DNA from: Microbacterium excoecariae
GTDB lineage: Bacteria > Actinomycetota > Actinomycetes > Actinomycetales > Microbacteriaceae
NCBI RefSeq assembly: GCF_011326725.1
Contig: NZ_JAANCO010000001.1
Span: 1,364,001 to 1,428,000, forward strand
Reading direction: 5' to 3'
Length of the DNA stretch: 64,000 nucleotides
Below the pieces are notes generated by a model. The model was not told the origin of the DNA. It did not search any database and saw only the letters and a program-made list of their open reading frames with translations. The position numbers were made by a program, and so were the translations under genes. Positions within the stretch are counted from its first letter, which is position 1. Each line of letters opens with the position of its first letter. Of this stretch, positions 6,687 to 57,100 are shown in pieces.

Positions 6687-7574
6687 ATGCGTCTCGTGCC
6701 CCTCTCTGACCCCGCGGATCCGCGGCTCGCCGACTACCGCGACCTGACCGACGTCGCGCTCCGGCGGGTGCTTGAGCCCGAGGGCGGGCTGTACATGGCC
6801 GAATCCGCGAAGGTGCTCGGCCGTGCCCTCGCCGCGGGGCACCTCCCGCGTTCGGTCATGACGGCCGAGAAGTGGCTGCCCGACGTCGAGGGCCTCGTTG
6901 CCGAGCTCGACGTGCCGGTCTACGTCGTGCCGGACGCGGTCGCCGAGTCCGTCACGGGATACACGGTGCACCGCGGCATGCTCGCGGCGATGCACCGGCC
7001 GGAGCTCCCCGACCCCGCCGTCGTCCTTCGCGATGCCCGTACCGTGTTCGTGCTCGACGGGCTCGTGGACCACACGAACGTGGGGTGTGGAGAAAACCGC
7101 GGTATCACCTCAAATACGAGCAAGTCGTCACGAATCGCGATCCTGGACGGCTTGGTCGATCACACGAACGTTGGCGCATGTTTTCGCAGCGCTGCCGCAA
7201 TGGGCGTCGACGCTGTCCTGGTGACGCCGACATGCGCAGATCCACTCTATCGGCGCAGTGTCCGGGTCTCGATGGGAACGGTCTTCCAGGTGCCGTGGAC
7301 GCGGATCGAGAACTGGCCGGCGAGCGTGCAGGGCCTCAAGGATGCCGGCTACGTCGTGGCGGGGATGACGCTGGGGGAGGGAGCGATCACGCTCGACCAA
7401 CTGGTCGCCGAGGATCACCAGAATCTCGCGCTCGTGTTCGGCAGCGAGGGGCCCGGTCTCGCGCCAACCACTCAGCGGCTGCTCGATCGACGCGTCACGA
7501 TCCCGATGATGGGTGGTGTCGATTCGCTGAACGTTGCGGCGAGCTCGGCTGTGGCGTTCTATGCAACAAGGTAG
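6687..7574 (+). CDS. SpoU/TrmH-family RNA 2'-O-methyltransferase, chimeric with island-supplied 3' end
   Basis: 295 aa. Residues 1 to about 133 are host sequence: an L30e-like substrate domain and the first SPOUT strand, ending LDGLVDHTNVG. The frame then runs into the island, reads a 19-residue linker starting CGENRG, repeats LDGLVDHTNVG and continues with a divergent island-borne SPOUT domain: NVGACFRSAA, LVFGSEGPGL and IPMMGGVDSLNVAASSA, all intact. The result is a 90-bp in-frame duplication/insertion immediately before SPOUT motif 1. The displaced native 3' end lies at 13541-13972. The methyltransferase may still work, since motifs 1-3 are complete in the second copy, but this cannot be told from sequence. 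The exact rRNA/tRNA target is unknown. Confidence 0.85.
   Translation: MRLVPLSDPADPRLADYRDLTDVALRRVLEPEGGLYMAESAKVLGRALAAGHLPRSVMTAEKWLPDVEGLVAELDVPVYVVPDAVAESVTGYTVHRGMLAAMHRPELPDPAVVLRDARTVFVLDGLVDHTNVGCGENRGITSNTSKSSRIAILDGLVDHTNVGACFRSAAAMGVDAVLVTPTCADPLYRRSVRVSMGTVFQVPWTRIENWPASVQGLKDAGYVVAGMTLGEGAITLDQLVAEDHQNLALVFGSEGPGLAPTTQRLLDRRVTIPMMGGVDSLNVAASSAVAFYATR
7076..7085. repeat. Left junction core of the island (attL-like)
   Basis: GAACGTGGGG inside the methyltransferase gene, the last host bases before island sequence. The matching right junction GAACGTCGGGG is at 13543. Joining the two rebuilds DHTNVG-AAFRG, the expected uninterrupted protein. The central base differs (none versus C), so the exact crossover is within GAACGT or GGGG. 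Confidence 0.7.
7166..7174. repeat. Second copy of the junction core within the island's replacement 3' end
   Basis: GAACGTTGG exactly 90 bp after the left junction core. It belongs to the duplicated LDGLVDHTNVG coding stretch that the island brings. The 90-bp spacing explains why the restored frame gains exactly 30 codons. Confidence 0.7.
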
Positions 7575-7615
7575 GCCCGGTTGAAATGTCAGGTGAAGCG
7601 AGAGGAGCCCGACGT

Positions 7616-8530
7616 ATGGGAGGGGCAGACTTCTTCGGTCCGTGGGAGGGCAGTCCGATCACGTCTTGGGAGACAGCCCTGAGCGAGATCGAGTCCGTGC
7701 TTAAGCGGACCGGGGCGCGGCGCGCGATTGGTTGGCGCGGGCAGGTCGATGCTCGGTGGAGCCTCCATAGCGGGTTGTACAGGAGACTGCTCGACGCTCG
7801 ATCTGAGTCGCAGCCGGCACCAGAGGAAGACGATCTTCTTCGGGCCGAAGAGAAGATCGCTCACTTCGTGCGGGGGAGTTGGCGTTTCGACCAAATGCCT
7901 TATCTGGAGCTGCTGGCGAACCTGCAACACTTCAGAGGTCCGACACGGATGCTCGATGTCTCGCTCAGTCCGCTGGTTGCTCTCTGGTTCGCCGTCGAGG
8001 AGCAGCATGGCGAGCTTGACGGTGTGGACGGACGAGTCTTCGCGTTCGACGTCACAAATCGCCGCGTGCAATTGGGTGAGAAATGGAGTACATACGACAT
8101 TCCCTGGCGTGAATCGGCTACCAATACCCCGTGGTGTAGAGATCTGCCACTGCTGTGGAGGCCACCGTCCTACAACGAGCGCATCCCCGCTCAGCAGTCG
8201 GGCTTCTTGTTGGCCGGTGTGCCGAAGGTTTACGCCGGTGGAAACGCTCAGTATCGGAAGGCTCCTGGGACAGCAGGAGAGTTCTGGCGGATTGGCGAGG
8301 TGCGGCGAGCCACCTCAGTCCCCACCAAGATGGTTGATCGCTCCGGAAAAGCTCTGCAGCAAAGTGTCGAGCCCACTCTGACGATTCGAATCGCGGCAGA
8401 AGCGAAGGCGGAGATTCGTCGCCGCATCGAACGGGACTACGGGTACAACCCAGCAACGATGTATCCCGATCTGTTCGGCATGGCCGCCGAAGTGCGTCAA
8501 GCTGTCGACAGAGCTGCGCTCTTAGGATAA
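7616..8530 (+). CDS. FRG domain-containing protein
   Basis: 304 aa. ATG 7616 is preceded by GAGGAG with 8-nt spacing; an in-frame ATG at 7586 is less well placed. The FRG domain is recognisable: GWRGQVDARWSLHSGLYRR (residues ~38-56), LLANLQHFRGPTRMLD with the invariant His and Thr-Arg-Leu-type core (~97-112), LVALWFAVE, and NERIPAQQSGFLL (~184-196). FRG proteins are named for a conserved F/W-R-G motif and are widespread beside defence and toxin-like genes; their biochemical activity is not firmly established. Island cargo. A 194-bp gap separates it from the membrane-anchored protein. Probably a soluble effector; that role is inference. Confidence 0.75.
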   Translation: MGGADFFGPWEGSPITSWETALSEIESVLKRTGARRAIGWRGQVDARWSLHSGLYRRLLDARSESQPAPEEDDLLRAEEKIAHFVRGSWRFDQMPYLELLANLQHFRGPTRMLDVSLSPLVALWFAVEEQHGELDGVDGRVFAFDVTNRRVQLGEKWSTYDIPWRESATNTPWCRDLPLLWRPPSYNERIPAQQSGFLLAGVPKVYAGGNAQYRKAPGTAGEFWRIGEVRRATSVPTKMVDRSGKALQQSVEPTLTIRIAAEAKAEIRRRIERDYGYNPATMYPDLFGMAAEVRQAVDRAALLG

Positions 8531-8724
8531 ATCGATAGTCAAGGAATCGACCTCTTGCTGGAATTCGGGACCGAAGGACTCGAGCTCGAACCGAAGGTGC
8601 ATGGGGCTCGGTCGGTGAGACATAGTTCCGAAGGCTGACAGTGTCGATTCGACAGGCATCGCAGCGAGCTCGGGTGCGCTGTCTTACGCAATGCGGTCGA
8701 CGAGCTGACACGAGGTGAGAACGG

Positions 8725-9303
8725 ATGGGGGCCATGGATCTGACATTGCTCACTCAGATCGTTTTCGCCGTGGCGACGCTTCTCGCGTCGCTTGGTGGGT
8801 ACCTGCTTGCTGGCCTGAACGAGCGACGGCGCGACGAGAGAATTCAGCGCCGTGAGGGCGAGTCGCGGCGTTTCGAACGTGCTGCCCAGCTCGAAGACGA
8901 GAGCCACGCCTTCCAACGGGAGACGCTCCTGTCCTTGCAGGATGCGTTGCAGAAGATGGCGCGCCTGACAGGCAAAGCGATGCACTTCGATCACATGCAG
9001 GCGCGTAAAGGAAAGTACACCCAACTCCCAGACGGTCTCAGCGCAGAGATGCTTGCTGCTGACGTCGAGGTAAGCCGGCTGACATCTCGGCTCCTCGATC
9101 CTCAGGTACGTGCCGCAGTCAAAGGCCTCACCGACCTCTCGGCTCAGCTTTCGACGCTTCCTGCCGATCTGCAGGGTCTCATCGGCGAGGACCTGGAGCG
9201 CCACGCTACTGCGAGGTTGCGTGAGTTCGGGGACAGGTACAACGCCGTCGTCGAGGTCGTTGGCGAAGCGGTACGCAGTGAGATTGACTGGCGACCCTCG
9301 TAG
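8725..9303 (+). CDS. Membrane-anchored helical protein, unknown function
   Basis: 192 aa. One transmembrane helix at residues ~6-29 (LTLLTQIVFAVATLLASLGGYL), followed by NERRRDERIQRRE, a positive patch that should stay inside, so the rest is cytoplasmic. Residues ~30-75 look like a long charged helix or coiled coil; the remainder is helical with no recognised domain. GAGGTGAG precedes the start; ATG 8734 is an alternative. Island cargo, downstream of the FRG gene on the same strand. It could be a membrane partner of the FRG protein, but that is speculation. Confidence 0.65.
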   Translation: MGAMDLTLLTQIVFAVATLLASLGGYLLAGLNERRRDERIQRREGESRRFERAAQLEDESHAFQRETLLSLQDALQKMARLTGKAMHFDHMQARKGKYTQLPDGLSAEMLAADVEVSRLTSRLLDPQVRAAVKGLTDLSAQLSTLPADLQGLIGEDLERHATARLREFGDRYNAVVEVVGEAVRSEIDWRPS

Positions 9304-9432
9304 GTGACGATTAGCGCGATGTTGAGTCGGCTACTTCGAACAGCGTCTCGCGAGACTCTTGGTGGCCGTGATCTAGGTTCAGGATGCTGGGCTGCAGGTG
9401 CGCGGACACTGATCGAGCGGGAGAATGCAGCG

Positions 9433-9693
9433 ATGGACAGCCGACTACTTCCGGAGCCAGACAGCGAGCTCGGCTACTCCGAGCAACAGCTGGCCGGCAT
9501 CCTCGGCGACCGCATGGCCGACTTCCGCGAGCACATGCTCATGAAGACCTACGCGATCGGAGAGCGCGGCTCCGTCTACTATCCGAGCGATGTGCATCGC
9601 TACGTGGAGTGCATGCTGCCACCTCGGTCGGCTCCGCTGTCACGTGGGCAGATCGCGGCTCCTCTCGCGGTTCGTGATGAGCCTTCGTCCTGA
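9433..9693 (+). CDS. Small hypothetical protein
   Basis: 86 aa from ATG 9433 (MDSRLLPEPDSELGYSE); the same frame is open back to 9304, but those residues look non-coding. The core GYSEQQLAGILGDRMADFREHM followed by VYYPSDVHRYVE resembles a small protein seen often in actinobacteria, in which a short N-terminal helix pair precedes a Y-x-x-D-V-x-R-[FY] motif; no function is known to me. The C-terminal ~25 residues look unstructured. Island cargo. Confidence 0.5.
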   Translation: MDSRLLPEPDSELGYSEQQLAGILGDRMADFREHMLMKTYAIGERGSVYYPSDVHRYVECMLPPRSAPLSRGQIAAPLAVRDEPSS

Positions 9694-9900
9694 CTGGTCG
9701 GAGACCGACGAACGCCCGGTCTTGTCTGAATTCGCGCAATCGGAAGTGCTTCTCGGATATCAGCATGCGGCCCTCGAGGTCGTCGCCGACCCGCTCGGAT
9801 CCACACCACGAGATCGGACCGATTCCTTCAGCTCGCGGTGGTGTCCGTGCGGTCTGGGGGAGTACTTAGTCGACGTACGACGCGGAACAAGGGACAGAGG

Positions 9901-11055
9901 ATGAGTTCGAGCTACGCATGGTTACCCGACCACCACGTCGCCGTGGCAGCGACGCTCGCGCACGCCGACGAACTCATCGGAGAAGTCGCCAGCCTCCTCT
10001 TCGACTATCAGACCCAGCCGGAGGGGATCATCCGGCTGCGAGAGGTGCCGATGGTCACGCACAGTCAGACCGTCGTGACAGGCATGTCCCCGATTCCGTG
10101 CAAAATTCCGCTACTGGTGGCTGATGCACTGGTCGTCCTGCGCAACGCGATCGAGCACACCTTGTTCGCCGAGATCGAGCACCAAGATGGCTCGCTCGAC
10201 GAGAAGGCGGCCAAGACCGTCGAGATGCCGGCGGCGCAGACCTACGAAGCATTCGAGGCATGGGTGAAGGTTCGTGCGAGGAACGGCTCGCCATCTCTGC
10301 AACGGGGCAGTGAGCTGCTCAAACGTATCGAGGGGCTCCAGCCGTTTCACCGGAACGTGAACCCGCAGGAACACCCAATGGCTCTGCTGGCTCTGCACAC
10401 GAACCATTCGAAGCATCGAGCGCCGGCGGTGACTGCTGTCCGCCTTGCAGCGATCCATCGCGAGGGCCGTACACCCCCGTCCCTGGCAGACATCGAGCGT
10501 CGCCCGGAGGTGCCTCTGCAGGTCGGAGAGGTGATCGCGGAGACCCCGAGGGGCCAGCACATCCCCGTCGCGCTCTTCCCGACCATCGGTATCAATCGGC
10601 CCGGTACCGAGCGCTGGCCGGTGTTGATGAAGGAGCTCGACGAGCTCGCCACGTGGGTGCGGACTCAGGCGGTGCCACGGCTGATCACCGGGATCGAGCC
10701 GCCGGTACCAGTGTTGCCTGCTCGGTATGAGATCTCGGTCGGCCACGAAGATGAACGCCGCGCGTTGTCGCATGGGTCGGCGACATCCGCAGCACAACTG
10801 CACAGTGACCGTCTCGGTGCTGCGAGCGCGCGGCTCGACATGGTCGAGACCATCGCCCAGATGGATGATGCCCCGAGCGCCGAGCAGCTCTCGGCATGGC
10901 TGGAGAGCTTGTCGGATCAGGATCTTCTCGCTCGGATGCGGCAACTGAGACCGACCGCGGCCTACGAACAAGAGACTGTTCTGAGCTACTTCGCCGTGCT
11001 CGAAAAGATGCGCGACGAGGCCCGCAGATTTGCAGACCTGCCGGTCGAGCAGTGA
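9901..11055 (+). CDS. Hypothetical protein with LRxAIEH and SKHR motifs
   Basis: 384 aa from ATG 9901, with AGGG about 7 nt upstream. Two sites recall a common actinobacterial hypothetical family: DALVVLRNAIEHTLF (~77-91; usual form DALHNLRSALDHL) and IEGLQPFH...HPMALLALHTNHSKHR (~140-175; usual form LDNIDKHR). The paired helices with conserved R, H and K-H-R look HEPN-like, but I cannot prove relation to HEPN RNases. The C-terminal ~80 residues are helical and acidic. It may be the last gene of the rightward island group and faces the PIN operon. Confidence 0.6.
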   Translation: MSSSYAWLPDHHVAVAATLAHADELIGEVASLLFDYQTQPEGIIRLREVPMVTHSQTVVTGMSPIPCKIPLLVADALVVLRNAIEHTLFAEIEHQDGSLDEKAAKTVEMPAAQTYEAFEAWVKVRARNGSPSLQRGSELLKRIEGLQPFHRNVNPQEHPMALLALHTNHSKHRAPAVTAVRLAAIHREGRTPPSLADIERRPEVPLQVGEVIAETPRGQHIPVALFPTIGINRPGTERWPVLMKELDELATWVRTQAVPRLITGIEPPVPVLPARYEISVGHEDERRALSHGSATSAAQLHSDRLGAASARLDMVETIAQMDDAPSAEQLSAWLESLSDQDLLARMRQLRPTAAYEQETVLSYFAVLEKMRDEARRFADLPVEQ

Positions 11056-11082
11056 GAGGTGGACCGACATCAGGCGCGGGAC

Positions 11083-11538
11083 TCAGCCGCCAGGGTCCTT
11101 GCTATCAATGAGCGCAGCGAACTCGGAGTTGCTGAGCACCGTCAGCCCGAACTCCTGGGCCTTGTTCCAAACAGCCTCGTCGGCCGTGACGACGACCCAC
11201 TCGGGGCTTAGCAGTAGTTGGTTATCGTGCTCTTGCCCTTCGAGCGCGCACGCCACGACCAGCGGGTCGGCGTTGCCTCTGTTGGCATATAGGTCTACGA
11301 GGCTGGTATCTCCGGACGGCACGGTCGCCATGATCTGCGAGAGCCAATGGAGCACTCGCGGTGTGGTCGGATGCACGTTGTCACGCATCGTCGCGACGTC
11401 AGGAAACCCGGATGCCTCGTGCATGACCTCTTCGGGGATGACCGCGTTCTGCAGGAAGAACTCGCTCTCGCGACGCCGTCTGCCGAGCTGGCTGAGAGCA
11501 TTGGTGTCGATGACGAACCGCTGCCCGAAGTCCTTCAT
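11083..11538 (-). CDS. PIN-domain nuclease (DUF4411-like)
   Basis: 151-aa PIN-fold protein. The acidic active-site residues are all present: Asp in FVIDTNALSQ (residues 8-17), Glu in IPEEVMHEA (~34-42), Asp in GNADPLVVACAL (~88-99) and Asp/Glu in VVVTADEAVWNKA (~115-127). The family cleaves RNA in toxin-antitoxin modules such as VapC. DUF4411-type PIN proteins are usually encoded next to an HTH-ImmA/IrrE protein. Here the start ATG overlaps the stop of the ImmA/IrrE-like gene by 4 bp, so the two are translationally coupled. Last gene of the three-gene operon. Confidence 0.75.
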   Translation of the reverse strand: MKDFGQRFVIDTNALSQLGRRRRESEFFLQNAVIPEEVMHEASGFPDVATMRDNVHPTTPRVLHWLSQIMATVPSGDTSLVDLYANRGNADPLVVACALEGQEHDNQLLLSPEWVVVTADEAVWNKAQEFGLTVLSNSEFAALIDSKDPGG

Positions 11539-12701
11539 TGGACGGCCCGCCGAAGATCTTCGATCCGCGATGGCTTGAGGTGGTTCAAGCAGATCGATCG
11601 GCAGAATTCGCCTGCGGAGATGCTCCCGTTGTCGAGCGCGTGCAGCATCCGAACGGTGAGCTCCCGGCCGTTGTACTTGCGTACGGCGTTCTCGGGATGG
11701 ATCGGGCTCCGCGGTCCACTATTCGGACGGCTCCTGAACTCGCCGCGCAGCTGCTCCAGATGGTTGCCGGCCGCTTCTGGGGCGATCATGCCCAGCCGCA
11801 TCGCTCGCACCGTGACGGCACTCGCCGTCACTTTGAATTCTGCTGAGGCAGCCTTGATGGCATCGAGCGAGGTTAGTGCCAGCGCTCTCATCCGTTCGGT
11901 GGGCATGAGCATCGTGCCGGCGATGTCGTACTCGCGACCGGGGTCCGTCTCGGTGCTACCTCCGTCCCACGTCATCGGGGCGAAGATGCGTCGTGCCACG
12001 AGCACCGTCATGAGAGCCAGGGTGAAGATGGTGCGGCCCACCGGCTCCTGGTCGTCCCCGTGGTCGCCACCAGCGAGAAAGATGTAAGGAACTTTGTTGT
12101 CTCGGACTGTCATCCCGCTGAACTTCACATGGGTCAGGCGCTGTGGCATGTAGTTTCGGACGCTGCGCGCGACGAGCACCTGGTTGGCCTCGAGGCACTC
12201 GATCATGAGGTCAAGCGCCTTCTCTTTGGTTCGGCACGCGCGCAGGCGATCGTGCGAGAGACCGAGCGCCGACATGAGGGCGGCGGCATCGGCGTCGATG
12301 GAAGCGCTCTCGGAGCGGAGCAGGCCGATGATCGTGTTCGACTCCAGTGTCGAGTCGTGCTTTCGGACGAGTTGCTGCTTTCGGATCAGGTCCTTGACGA
12401 TGAGCTCCACATCGCGGAGCTCCACCTTGGCGCGCGAACCGATTGAGAACGTATCCCTGCTGACGCCCGCGAGGAGCTTGGCCGTCTTCTTCTCCACCTG
12501 CTCCCGTACCAGCGCGATCGGCGCGAAGAACAGCGAGTATGGAATGTCGCCCTTACGTGCGAGGTCTACCAGGTCGGAGAACCTGATGCTCCCGGTCTGC
12601 AGAGCGCGTTCGTAGACCTTGTATGTGCCCGCCACAGAGTTGTCAAGGAGCGTCGTGAACACCGCGTCATCGATGGTGATGGTCGAGTGGCTGAGGAGCA
12701 C
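11535..12701 (-). CDS. ImmA/IrrE-like protein lacking the HExxH metalloprotease motif
   Basis: 388 aa from GTG 12701. The overall plan follows XRE-ImmA/IrrE proteins: LARKGDIPYSLFFAP near residues 47-61, VPYIFLAGGD then EPVGRTIFTLA (~225-240), and the C-terminal block with GTMLMPTERMRALAL and FKVTASAVTVRAMRLGMI. Where active members read FTLAHELGH, this one reads FTLALMTVL, so both zinc His and the catalytic Glu are gone; the third-ligand region (REYDIAG) is also poorly kept. It is probably a non-catalytic regulator or antitoxin for the PIN protein. It overlaps the PIN gene by 4 bp and starts 32 bp after the recombinase-like gene. Family call is by pattern and not certain. Confidence 0.65.
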   Translation of the reverse strand: MLLSHSTITIDDAVFTTLLDNSVAGTYKVYERALQTGSIRFSDLVDLARKGDIPYSLFFAPIALVREQVEKKTAKLLAGVSRDTFSIGSRAKVELRDVELIVKDLIRKQQLVRKHDSTLESNTIIGLLRSESASIDADAAALMSALGLSHDRLRACRTKEKALDLMIECLEANQVLVARSVRNYMPQRLTHVKFSGMTVRDNKVPYIFLAGGDHGDDQEPVGRTIFTLALMTVLVARRIFAPMTWDGGSTETDPGREYDIAGTMLMPTERMRALALTSLDAIKAASAEFKVTASAVTVRAMRLGMIAPEAAGNHLEQLRGEFRSRPNSGPRSPIHPENAVRKYNGRELTVRMLHALDNGSISAGEFCRSICLNHLKPSRIEDLRRAVQ

Positions 12702-12733
12702 ATTGATACCGATGGCACCTCACCTCCGCTGGG

Positions 12734-13309
12734 TCACGATGATGCATCTGTCGGTTTCTCGGCTCTTAGCACATTGTGCACCGTGCCGATTGAATCGCCG
12801 AGTAACTGCGCGATGGCACGCAGCGTTTCTCCCCGATCGCGCTGCTTGAAGATCGCGGCTCGCATGGTGTAATCAACTACTCGCGGACGACCCCCGGGAG
12901 CCCCGCGCTCGCGCGCTGCTTGCAGTCCGTCTTTGATCCTGTCGCGCAGAGTCGAGCGTCGCATGTCGGTGATCTCACGAGCCGCCTCTCGAATGTCCGA
13001 CAGCTCGTTGTAGTCACCCGCATCGGAGCCTTCAAGAACTCGAACCGCGATGCCATGCTCGAGTAGCTCGATCAGTAGTTCCCAGCCGTCGACCATGCTC
13101 CGCGCCAGGTCCCTGACCTTCCTCACCACAAGTCGGTCGTCGGTGCCAAGCTGCTCCACTACGGCGAGGAGTGTTGGGCGGCTGCCGACCAGGCGTCGGC
13201 GAGACGACTCCTCCTCGAACACTCGGGCGCACATCGGGCCCACTGCATCGTGCTGTTCTTGTACGTGGAGGGGGTCCCGGGTGACCCTTACCAGACCGAT
13301 GAGCGTCAT
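12734..13309 (-). CDS. Serine-recombinase-like protein with rearranged active site
   Basis: 191 aa from ATG 13309 (MTLIGLVRVTRDP); the frame is open to 13342. It keeps the resolvase/invertase layout: N-terminal catalytic fold, GSRPTLL (the Arg45-region), LARS (Arg71-region), long E-helix with RRSTLRDRIKDGLQAARERG, then GGRP and a C-terminal helix-turn-helix (~145-190). The nucleophile motif RVS is RVT here, the conserved Tyr before it is Leu, and the DR pair of KLDRLGRS reads RD (KVRDLARS). With Ser replaced and Asp-Arg swapped, ordinary recombination is doubtful. A DNA-binding regulator of its operon is an alternative. First gene of the operon with the ImmA-like and PIN genes. Confidence 0.7.
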   Translation of the reverse strand: MTLIGLVRVTRDPLHVQEQHDAVGPMCARVFEEESSRRRLVGSRPTLLAVVEQLGTDDRLVVRKVRDLARSMVDGWELLIELLEHGIAVRVLEGSDAGDYNELSDIREAAREITDMRRSTLRDRIKDGLQAARERGAPGGRPRVVDYTMRAAIFKQRDRGETLRAIAQLLGDSIGTVHNVLRAEKPTDASS

Positions 13310-13540
13310 CGCGTATGGCTCGGAGTCAGTCCCACCGAGCACGTTGCCGACGGGATGGATGAGATTTGGACACCCGCAGTTCTCATAGGTTTATTGAACA
13401 CGACCTTGCGAAGATCAAGCCTCGACGAAGGTCCAATACGTAGTCTGAACAGGGATAAACTCTAGTCATGCGATGTCATCGCGCTCCCTCTGCAGACGCC
13501 CCCCGGAAGCTCGGATTCGCTAGAACGAACTGCGACACCT

Positions 13541-13972
13541 CCGAACGTCGGGGCGGCGTTCCGCGGCGCGGCGGGCCTCGGCGCGGACGCGGTCCTCACG
13601 GGCCCGACGTGCGCGGATCCGCTCTACCGCCGCAGCGTGCGCGTCTCGATGGGCACCGTTTTTCAGGTGCCGTGGACGCGGCTCCCGGCCTGGCGCGGCG
13701 ACGGCAGCGCCGGGGATGTCCTGCGCGCCAGCGGTTTCCACGTCGCTGCGCTCGCGCTCTCCGACGACGCCGTCTCGCTCGAGAGCTTCGACGCCACACG
13801 CCCCGAGCGGGTGGCGTTCGTCATGGGATCCGAGGGGCCGGGCCTCGGCCGCGACGCGCTCGCCGCGGCCGACTCAATCGTGACGATCCCCATGGCCGGC
13901 GGGGTGGACTCCCTCAACGTCGCGGCCGCGAGCGCCGTCGCGCTGTGGGCGCTGGCGCACCCGCCGGCCTGA
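13541..13972 (+). pseudogene. Orphan native 3' end of the RNA methyltransferase gene
   Basis: Open in the original frame from PNVGAAFRGAAGLG through TGPTCADPLYRRSVRVSMGT, VMGSEGPGL and IPMAGGVDSLNVAAASA to the stop: the SPOUT domain of the gene that begins at 6687, cut off by the island. It has no proper start; a GTG at 13637 could give only a partial domain. Its GC-rich codons match the host, whereas the island's replacement copy does not. The two copies share most motifs but differ at many residues, so they come from different lineages. Confidence 0.85.
13543..13553. repeat. Right junction core of the island (attR-like)
   Basis: GAACGTCGGGG directly before GCGGCGTTCCGC, where host reading frame and composition resume. 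It pairs with the left core at 7076. The ~190 bp to its left (13343-13540) are island sequence without a gene that I can support. Confidence 0.7.
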
Positions 13973-53755: not shown

Positions 53756-54118
53756 ATGGCTCACAACACGACCCTGGGGCGCGCGGGCGAAGAGCGCGCA
53801 GCTGCCTACCTCGCGGAAGCCGGCGCGCGCGTTGTCGACCGCAACTGGCGTTGCCCGGCCGGCGAGATCGACATCGTCGCGCTCGAGCGCGGCCGCCTCG
53901 CGATCGTCGAGGTGAAGACGCGCACGAGCAGGCGGTACGGGCACCCGTTCGAGGCGATCGACGACGACAAGCTCGCCCGGCTGTGGCGCCTTGCGCTCGC
54001 GTGGGCGCGCGCGCATCCTGACGTCGCGCGGGGGCGACAGCTGCGGGTCGATGCCATCGCCGTGACGGGCCCGGACGCCGCGACCGCCACCGTCGAGCAC
54101 CTGCGGGGGCTCGCGTGA
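53756..54118 (+). CDS. YraN family (UPF0102) nuclease-fold protein
   Basis: 120 aa. LGRAGEERAAAYLAEAGARVVDRNWRCPAGEIDIVALERGRLAIVEVKTRTSRRYG: the PD-(D/E)XK-like core with E-x-D and E-V-K. Usually next to comM/yifB, as here, and the stop overlaps its GTG start. A nuclease or Holliday-junction role is supposed but unproven. Confidence 0.87.
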   Translation: MAHNTTLGRAGEERAAAYLAEAGARVVDRNWRCPAGEIDIVALERGRLAIVEVKTRTSRRYGHPFEAIDDDKLARLWRLALAWARAHPDVARGRQLRVDAIAVTGPDAATATVEHLRGLA

Positions 54119-55191: not shown

Positions 55192-55200
55192 GAATTCACT
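55171..55200. other. Prophage left attachment region (attL) in comM
   Basis: The last bases matching comM are about 55171-55191, coding MNPCPCG; after that sequence no longer resembles the family. The integrase stop codon is at 55200-55202, which fits the usual position of attP beside the integrase gene. The core dinucleotide cannot be set without attR. Confidence 0.6.
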
Positions 55201-56651
55201 TATTCATGGTCAGGTTCCCACGTTGGTTTCACTGTGAACCGGGCTCGCCAAGCATCCTTGCTACGCCCAGTTGAGGGCCCGATTTCCACCCGCCGGATCA
55301 GCTGCTTCAGCACGCGGTTCTGCGCCTCGGGTTGCAGGCCGTCGAAGCCTGCTACGAGCATTGGTATGAGCTCGAGGAGATCCCGTCGTGGCGCGGGGGC
55401 TGCGCGGAGGTGCCGAGCGCGGAGGGATGTGAGCTCGTCGTTGAGCTGCGCCGATGCGGCATCGTACGCGTCCTGGTTGATCTTCTCGTCGATGAGGCGC
55501 ACGGTCAGGCTGGCGAGCCGTTTCTTGGTGGCCGCGATCATGCGCTCGATCGCTGCACGATCTTCGATCGTGCGTAGCCGGTTCTCCGCCTCTGCTTGAG
55601 CTGCAGCGCGAAGCTGAGACGTCTTCTCTGGTAGCTCGTGGACCCAGTCCGAGAGGTACTGCTCGACGAGATGCAGCTTCACCGACAGGGGGCGGGCGCA
55701 TTTCTCGCGCCCGCGGTGAGCGGTCCCGCATCGATAGTCGCCGACGCCGTCGCGGCCGATAGCCGCGAGGTACATGCGCTCGCCGCATTGGCACCGGAGG
55801 AGCCCGGTGGCGAGGCGGGTCCGTCCCCGAGGTGGCGCGACGTTTGAGGCGATGCGCGCGAGGTACGCCTCCCAGAGGTCGTTGGGAATGATGGCCTCGT
55901 GTGCACCCGGGTAGTACTTGCCTCCAACATGGATCAGCCCTGCGGCAAACCCGGTGCGCATGGTCGTACGGATCGAGTTGTTCGACCACTGCGAGCCGCG
56001 CTTCGTGCGCCGGCCGGTCTGGTTCAGCCAACGCGAGAGTGCCGCGATGCCGGTGCCGGCAACGTAGCGCTCGTACGCCTCTTTGAGGGCTGCGGCCTCG
56101 TCGGGGTGGGGCGTGTAGGTGTCGCCGTCGCGCACGTAGCCGTAGCGTTCGCCTCCGGAGGGGAGGAGCCCTGCTCGACGGCGCCGGTCGAGCGTCTCTG
56201 CCCAGACCTCTCCGATCGATTCGGACTGGAACGCGGCGTACTCGGTCATGACGCCGCGTGCGAACCGGCCTGAGGCGGTCGAGGTGTCGATGGGCTCGGT
56301 GACCGATTCGATGCGCCCGCCGGCGAGCTTCACGCGGTCATCGGCCACTGCCCAGTGGAGTCGGTTGCGTGAGAGGCGGGACCACTTCCAGAGCACGATG
56401 ACGTCTGCTCGGGCCTCTTCGATGAGCCGGAGCGTGTCGATGACGCCTGGGCGCGTGTCCCACTTCCGCCCGGAGATCTGGTCCACGTTGACCGCGATGA
56501 CTTCGTATCCGCGCTCGCGGCAGTAGTCGCGGCCGAGGTACTCCTGCGTTTCGAGAGACTCGCTGTCCTCGCGCTCTTTGGACTGGCGCAGGTAGAGCAC
56601 GGCGCGGTTGCCGGGCCGCGCGCCGCGCAGCGGGACCGGTGCTGCGGTCAT
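55200..56651 (-). CDS. Large serine integrase
   Basis: 483 aa from ATG 56651 (MTAAPVPLRGARPGNRAVLYLRQSKERED); the frame is open to 56861 but this start overlaps the upstream stop by 4 bp. Catalytic domain: AVLYLRQSKE with nucleophile Ser, VLWKWSRLSRN, then the recombinase domain ERYGYVRDGDTYTPHPDEAAALKEAYERYVAGTGIAALSRWLNQTGRRTKRGSQWSNNSIRTTMRTGFAAG, zinc ribbon CQCGERMYL...YRCGTAHRGREKC, and a coiled coil near 390-440. It likely inserted the prophage into comM. No directionality factor is recognised. Confidence 0.9.
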   Translation of the reverse strand: MTAAPVPLRGARPGNRAVLYLRQSKEREDSESLETQEYLGRDYCRERGYEVIAVNVDQISGRKWDTRPGVIDTLRLIEEARADVIVLWKWSRLSRNRLHWAVADDRVKLAGGRIESVTEPIDTSTASGRFARGVMTEYAAFQSESIGEVWAETLDRRRRAGLLPSGGERYGYVRDGDTYTPHPDEAAALKEAYERYVAGTGIAALSRWLNQTGRRTKRGSQWSNNSIRTTMRTGFAAGLIHVGGKYYPGAHEAIIPNDLWEAYLARIASNVAPPRGRTRLATGLLRCQCGERMYLAAIGRDGVGDYRCGTAHRGREKCARPLSVKLHLVEQYLSDWVHELPEKTSQLRAAAQAEAENRLRTIEDRAAIERMIAATKKRLASLTVRLIDEKINQDAYDAASAQLNDELTSLRARHLRAAPAPRRDLLELIPMLVAGFDGLQPEAQNRVLKQLIRRVEIGPSTGRSKDAWRARFTVKPTWEPDHE

Positions 56652-57100
56652 GACGTGACTCGATCGCGGTCGTCCCATTGACCGAGGCCCATCCTTGGTC
56701 GCACGTAGACGGCGACGTCGGTGCGGAGGAGGACTCGTTGGTAGGCCCGCACGAGGTCGAGCGAGACATCGAGGTCGTGGGCCATGGCCGGCGCGTGACC
56801 GTCTCGTACGAGCTCGGCCAGCTTGTAGTCCTCTTTGCTGATGAGGCGGAGCGCAGCCCACTCGTCGGCCCGCCGTTCTTGCTTCCAGGCGACCGGGCCG
56901 AACGGAGTGGGGGTGTCGCCGTAGATCACGTGCGCGAGCTCGTGAGCAAGCACCGATCTTTCGATCCTGTGCGGCAGCCCCTCCTGAAGCCGGAGGCGCC
57001 CCGTCGAGGGCTGAAAGTCGCCGTCATGCTCAAGGTGCGCGAGGTCCGCGTACTCAAGCGTGAGGCCGAGCCGGTGCACCATGTCGATGAGCTGGCGCAC
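56648..57100 (-). CDS. ImmA/IrrE-family metallopeptidase
   Basis: 150 aa with an intact zinc site: SVLAHELAHVIYGD (HExxH, residues ~49-62) and the third ligand in QERRADEWAALRL (Glu ~73-85). In mobile elements of Bacillus, ImmA cleaves the neighbouring ImmR-type repressor after DNA damage. Here it lies between integrase and repressor with 2 bp to the repressor stop, so prophage derepression is the likely job. Confidence 0.85.
   Translation of the reverse strand: MRQLIDMVHRLGLTLEYADLAHLEHDGDFQPSTGRLRLQEGLPHRIERSVLAHELAHVIYGDTPTPFGPVAWKQERRADEWAALRLISKEDYKLAELVRDGHAPAMAHDLDVSLDLVRAYQRVLLRTDVAVYVRPRMGLGQWDDRDRVTS

Follow-up and report, generated by a model that had tools for sequence, protein, structure and literature searches.

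In Microbacterium excoecariae (genome size, 2.71 Mb), three co-directional open reading frames (ORFs) on the minus strand span positions 11083–13309 of a 64,000-nt stretch, the whole of which is called the window here. They encode a PIN-domain protein (PIN), an ImmA/IrrE-like protein (IMM) and a small serine-recombinase homologue (RES). Our analysis suggested, with a probability of about 0.7, that IMM and PIN form a self-contained, translationally coupled toxin module and that RES is no component of it but the right-end gene of an island inserted in a SpoU-family methyltransferase gene. IMM and PIN are a conserved two-gene unit across many actinobacteria, and the pair is real and functional-looking. 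RES is not part of this unit and belongs to the island carrying the pair. A first-pass annotation of the region had proposed an operon in which a PIN nuclease is held by two non-catalytic partners. The shared strand, the 32 bp gap between RES and IMM and the 4-nt overlap of IMM and PIN were as it had described them, and the ImmA-like partner was indeed tied to PIN in what resembles a toxin–antitoxin or defence module, but the resolvase-like partner was not. It did not see that all three genes sit within an island interrupting the SpoU gene.

IMM was found in 8 of 398 family genomes, the source genome being counted in both numbers. In the 16-kb regions around IMM in the other seven genomes, PIN directly followed IMM in every case, and no RES relative was present. 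A scan of species genomes with an IMM alignment yielded 44 named actinobacterial loci, which overlap in part with the seven family relatives. PIN lay directly after IMM in 42 of these loci, and the two genes shared a 4-nt NTGA overlap in all but one of the 42 (41/42). Both genes are under purifying selection: the ratio of nonsynonymous to synonymous substitution rates (dN/dS) relative to locus L074 was ~0.09 for IMM and ~0.10 for PIN, and the values for both genes relative to L074 and L083 were 0.09–0.15, all of them rough at dS > 1. No match to IMM was obtained in plasmid, phage and viral-contig collections. The surroundings of the pair were compared in a set of 140 neighbour proteins (up to two genes per side, within 3 kb, < 1300 amino acids, chosen with a crude gene picker; L093, L095, L096, L112 and L116 dropped), in which every third gene family was limited to at most 4 of the 40 loci, the window being counted among these. 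Pfam matches in this set included serine recombinases, phage integrases and relaxases. Among the 44 named loci, an FRG gene such as that of the window island was present at one, and the two island ORFs without a family match (192 and 405 amino acids) were absent near all of them.

The PIN assignment was supported by structure and by conserved residues. The AlphaFold2 model of PIN had a predicted local distance difference test score (pLDDT) of 91.8, and Foldseek matched it to PIN structures, namely Nmd4 (E 2.7e-5), SMG6 (E 6.3e-5) and VapC4 (E 8.1e-5). By sequence, Pfam gave PIN_4 at E 0.0015, under the curated cut-off, and profiles against solved structures gave one weak match. As the first-pass annotation had stated, the acidic residues are kept: E41, D91 and D120 occur in 38/38 sequences and D11 in 37/38, the sole exception (L075) being without an in-frame overlap start. 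This alignment excluded L077, L098, L099, L101 and L112, in which ORF-end picking failed, and L103 and L116, which are without PIN. The DUF4411 label given to the protein earlier was rejected, as neither the window protein nor any of seven relatives matched DUF4411 in Pfam at E up to 1.

IMM is an ImmA/IrrE-like protein without the protease motif. Its AlphaFold2 model (pLDDT 89.4) aligned best with CapP (7t5t; Z 11.7, root-mean-square deviation 3.3 over 161 residues) across IMM residues 133–323, and PprI/IrrE followed at Z 8.2–8.5; the ImmA/IrrE-like fold covers residues 130–327. HExxH was found nowhere in the 43 IMM sequences compared (L112 and L116 dropped), and an aliphatic pentamer (LMTVL, LLTVL or similar) stands at the equivalent place in all 43. 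Therefore, the LMTVL that had been reported in place of HELGH is present, but its interpretation as a loss peculiar to the window protein was rejected, since the motif is missing throughout the family. Neither a Pfam helix-turn-helix match nor a match of sequence profiles to solved structures was obtained for IMM.

The pair is best read as belonging to the XRE-ImmA/PIN and RosmerTA kind already described, as a variant that is alike in architecture by fold and neighbour but whose family has no protease motif. Passages of Makarova et al. (2009; PMC2701414) report COG2856-Xre proteins paired with PIN toxins, and there, as here, the ImmA/IrrE-like protein adjoins the toxin in one putative operon that is mobile and patchy. 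Whereas the COG2856 family is characterised in those passages by HEXXH, IMM has no such motif in 43/43 sequences, and its XRE part is unrecognisable by sequence. Parts of a 2023 study (PMC10440598) describe ImmA antitoxins with PIN-like partners, the NetFlax D25 ImmA node and RosmerTA (RmrA/RmrT); some RosmerTA systems protect against phage. Unlike RosmerTA, the window pair has an IMM that matches the PADLOC RmrA profile only at E 0.0025 and is without the protease motif, and a PIN without an RmrT match. CapP, which is associated with the cyclic oligonucleotide-based antiphage signalling system (CBASS), resembles IMM most closely in structure; in contrast to CapP, IMM is without HExxH, and no CBASS genes were found among the six window-island proteins scanned.

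The island is real and of more interest than the trio. It comprises 6467 bp between two AACGT cores, and its G+C content is 62.0% vs. 72.5% and 72.7% in the 5-kb flanks. The 3′ half of the SpoU gene is present twice, as a 74% direct repeat of 153 nt (one copy at 7165–7317). The SpoU gene consists of a host part up to ~7081 followed in frame by an island linker and an island-borne 3′ half, and the displaced host half starts again right after the AACGT at 13544–13548. Five sister islands occur at the same SpoU motif in four other genomes, giving six islands in five genomes with lengths of 6.5, 9.8, 9.3, 8.1, 14.7 and 3.7 kb. The core is AACGT, with AAGGT instead at two left ends in Pseudarthrobacter siccitolerans (G398). 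Several genomes hence carry such islands at one fixed site and with well-defined ends, and one genome (G296) has an uninterrupted SpoU gene with the same neighbour genes. Island-type SpoU 3′ halves were detected in 8/398 genomes, and none was confirmed in viral contigs.

The cargo of the sister islands varies and consists mostly of restriction or other defence-like genes. The G255 island has the same layout, from a rebuilt SpoU gene to the displaced half; between them are an FRG gene 90% identical to the window one, type I restriction genes and a degenerate RES, and the helicase gene adjoining the island is the same as that beside the window island. The restriction islands at the SpoU site of G309 and G106, which belong to different genera, are ~94%–97% identical vs. 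75% in the flank. The G309 copy (L120) carries an additional transposase-like ORF compared with the G106 copy (L121). P. siccitolerans has two tandem islands, one of them with IMM-PIN (L082). These tandem islands (G398:C44, ~95.5–113.9 kb; L082, L129) have nearly identical left ends. No tyrosine integrase (PF00589, E up to 1e-6) was found in any of the six islands, DDE transposases lying outside this search, and the only PF00239 matches in them were the RES proteins of the window and G255.

Staphylococcal cassette chromosome (SCC) elements, located in rlmH of staphylococci, are, like the SpoU islands, cargo-bearing mobile islands in an rRNA methyltransferase gene, and they carry active serine recombinases. 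Unlike SCC, the SpoU islands show no active serine recombinase detected and use a SpoU-family gene. In the literature searched, which mostly excluded subscription papers, no description was recognised of SpoU defence islands or of dead serine recombinases as defence regulators. Insertion in SpoU-like genes is not new in itself, because sections of one report (PMC10654092) place a phage attachment site of Mycobacterium abscessus in the sixth codon of a SpoU-like tRNA methyltransferase gene.

RES lies nearest the right island end in both the window and G255, and both copies are without the catalytic residues of active small serine recombinases. In the window, the active site reads RVT and RD..R; the Thr at the catalytic Ser and the swap of Asp-Arg to Arg-Asp had both been recognised earlier, and the second Arg is retained. 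In G255, it reads QVG and RS..T, with Gly for the catalytic Ser and Arg-Ser/Thr for Asp-Arg/Arg. The eight RES relatives aligned from outside SpoU islands keep Ser in 7/8, Asp-Arg in 8/8 and the second Arg in 7/8. The RES start at 13309 fits the N-termini of its relatives, and the ORF is extendable to a GTG at 13342. A 14-mer, GTGTTCAATAAACC, which may be an operator, lies upstream of both RES copies and was not found elsewhere among the scanned loci L047–L117. Each of the catalytically intact resolvase relatives in L048–L055 is preceded by several GTTCA..AAC-type repeats, which are related to this 14-mer and look like recombination sites.

The proposal that RES, IMM and PIN act jointly, in which RES would bind DNA or serve as a sensor for the other two, appeared highly improbable. 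The narrow RES-IMM gap and shared direction would fit it, and a resolvase-IMM-PIN order is seen twice if Tsukamurella spumae (L085) is counted. However, the L085 resolvase, which was detected with a RES profile over all locus ORFs, retains its catalytic residues and shares 32% identity with window RES; tblastn found a relative of window RES in 0/44 named loci and 0/7 family relatives; and the closest island RES, in G255, is likewise at the right end but is the first gene of a type I restriction operon. The trio is therefore not supported as a conserved defence unit. The genome search for the same trio that the first-pass annotation had suggested found the three genes together only rarely, the outcome it had itself named as contradicting its proposal. 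A conserved three-gene operon was rejected, as RES is not kept beside IMM-PIN and no third gene family recurs beyond 4 of 40 loci. A sigma-70 consensus scan gave no promoter-like site. RES could be a remnant, or it could have been put to new use as a DNA-binding protein, the former being favoured at about even odds. A decayed and now functionless descendant of the recombinase that once moved the island would agree with the different loss of the active site in the window and G255 and with the right-end position in both. Against this, both copies are intact ORFs (44% identity; dN/dS ~0.30, with dS saturated), the upstream 14-mer is common to them, and three other islands examined are without any PF00239 match.

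It is also conceivable, but unlikely, that IMM-PIN processes RNA in a regulatory role and is neither a toxin–antitoxin nor a defence module. The PIN fold also matches RNA-decay and tRNA-processing proteins (Nmd4, SMG6 and RNase P), and IMM is without protease residues, both of which are compatible with such a role. The sparse and patchy distribution (8/398 family genomes) argues against it, as do identities that are out of step with genus (from 80% down to 50%–57% among Microbacterium members), mobile or defence-like neighbour genes, and the location of the pair in islands in both the window and L082.

Several observations weigh against the interpretation of IMM-PIN as a self-contained toxin module and RES as an island gene. 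At the level of the pair, L103 has IMM but no detectable PIN, L116 is without PIN and has a truncated IMM, and IMM is frame-broken in L102 and L112. In T. spumae (L085, 9399–11586), a small resolvase gene runs 4 nt into the start of IMM, giving the order resolvase-IMM-PIN. PF00239 matches 4/140 neighbour proteins, which phmmer assigned to L085 and to larger or partial serine recombinases in L074, L077 and L105. The PADLOC matches among these neighbours (type I/II methyltransferases, restriction enzymes, DRT, mads and PDC-S48) come from a scan made without a control set. As for the proteins, PADLOC gave no match for PIN and weak ones for IMM (RmrA, PDLC03948, over residues 162–310; capP, E 0.0033), and IMM had no Pfam match above cut-off (Peptidase_M78, E 0.13). 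The fold call for IMM rests on the structural aligner and on rows above unrelated ones, because Foldseek alone reached only E 0.0094 with CapP and gave no match at ≤ 0.001. The XRE-like N-terminus of IMM rests on one row at Z 2.4 (2aw6_B, residues 8–64). As for the island, four of the eight genomes with an island-type SpoU half (G014, G021, G291 and G296) show no displaced half within 19.9 kb; therefore, this half also occurs without an island. The displaced half in G106 is island-type as well (81%).

Table 1. Coordinates of the IMM-PIN pair, RES and the SpoU island in the window.
Feature	Position	Strand	Basis or remark
PIN-domain nuclease, putative RNase toxin (PIN)	11083-11538	-	151 aa; PIN_4, AlphaFold2, Foldseek, conserved acids, dN/dS
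ImmA/IrrE-like pseudo-protease, putative antitoxin or sensor (IMM)	11535-12701	-	388 aa, GTG start; AlphaFold2, structure alignment, dN/dS
Small serine-recombinase homologue, degenerate active site (RES)	12734-13309	-	Resolvase PF00239 E 3.2e-12; nearest island right end
GTGTTCAATAAACC, possible operator	13388-13401	-	14-mer upstream of RES, in G255 too
SpoU-integrated island	7077-13548	.	6467 bp between two AACGT cores (6.47 kb)
Left junction core AACGT	7077-7081	+	
Right junction core AACGT	13544-13548	+	
Restored SpoU-family 2′-O-methyltransferase gene	6687-7574	+	SpoU_methylase PF00588 E 2.1e-34
Displaced host 3′ half of SpoU gene	13549-13972	+	PF00588 E 3.2e-19 for 13637-13972
FRG-domain protein, candidate defence gene, cargo	7586-8530	+	FRG PF08867 E 6.3e-16; PADLOC PDC-S15 E 1.2e-26
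Island ORF, 192 aa	8725-9303	+	no family match
Island ORF, 405 aa	9838-11055	+	no family match above cut-off

Elsewhere in the window, a 553-aa ORF on the minus strand (55200–56861) encodes a large serine recombinase with a PF00239 match at 56169–56603. It seems to have split a Mg-chelatase/ComM-like ATPase gene whose start is at 54115. Phage-like small ORFs follow the recombinase, and this is probably a prophage end.

If IMM-PIN is a toxin module, PIN would be a metal-dependent RNase-type toxin, and IMM, through an ImmA/IrrE-like domain without the protease motif, might keep it inactive. A trigger such as phage infection could meet the sensor pocket or the N-terminal region of IMM and release PIN, which would then cut RNA so that growth stops; such a response might serve in phage defence. 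RES would be the right-end gene of the SpoU-integrated defence island that now carries the module. A broader and rather doubtful proposal is that these defence islands form a family without an integrase that swaps SpoU halves, restores the host methyltransferase gene at the left end and is moved in trans. In some of them, a dead serine recombinase may act as a right-end leader that regulates, via GTGTTCAATAAACC, the defence operon behind it, namely IMM-PIN in the window and type I restriction in G255.

If the toxin-module interpretation is true, a whole ImmA/IrrE-like family would work with a PIN RNase although its members are not proteases, and the usual cleave-the-repressor model could be tested against one of pure sensing or binding. 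The SpoU islands have a fixed site, clear boundaries and exchangeable defence cargo but no integrase match of their own, which makes their movement directly testable.
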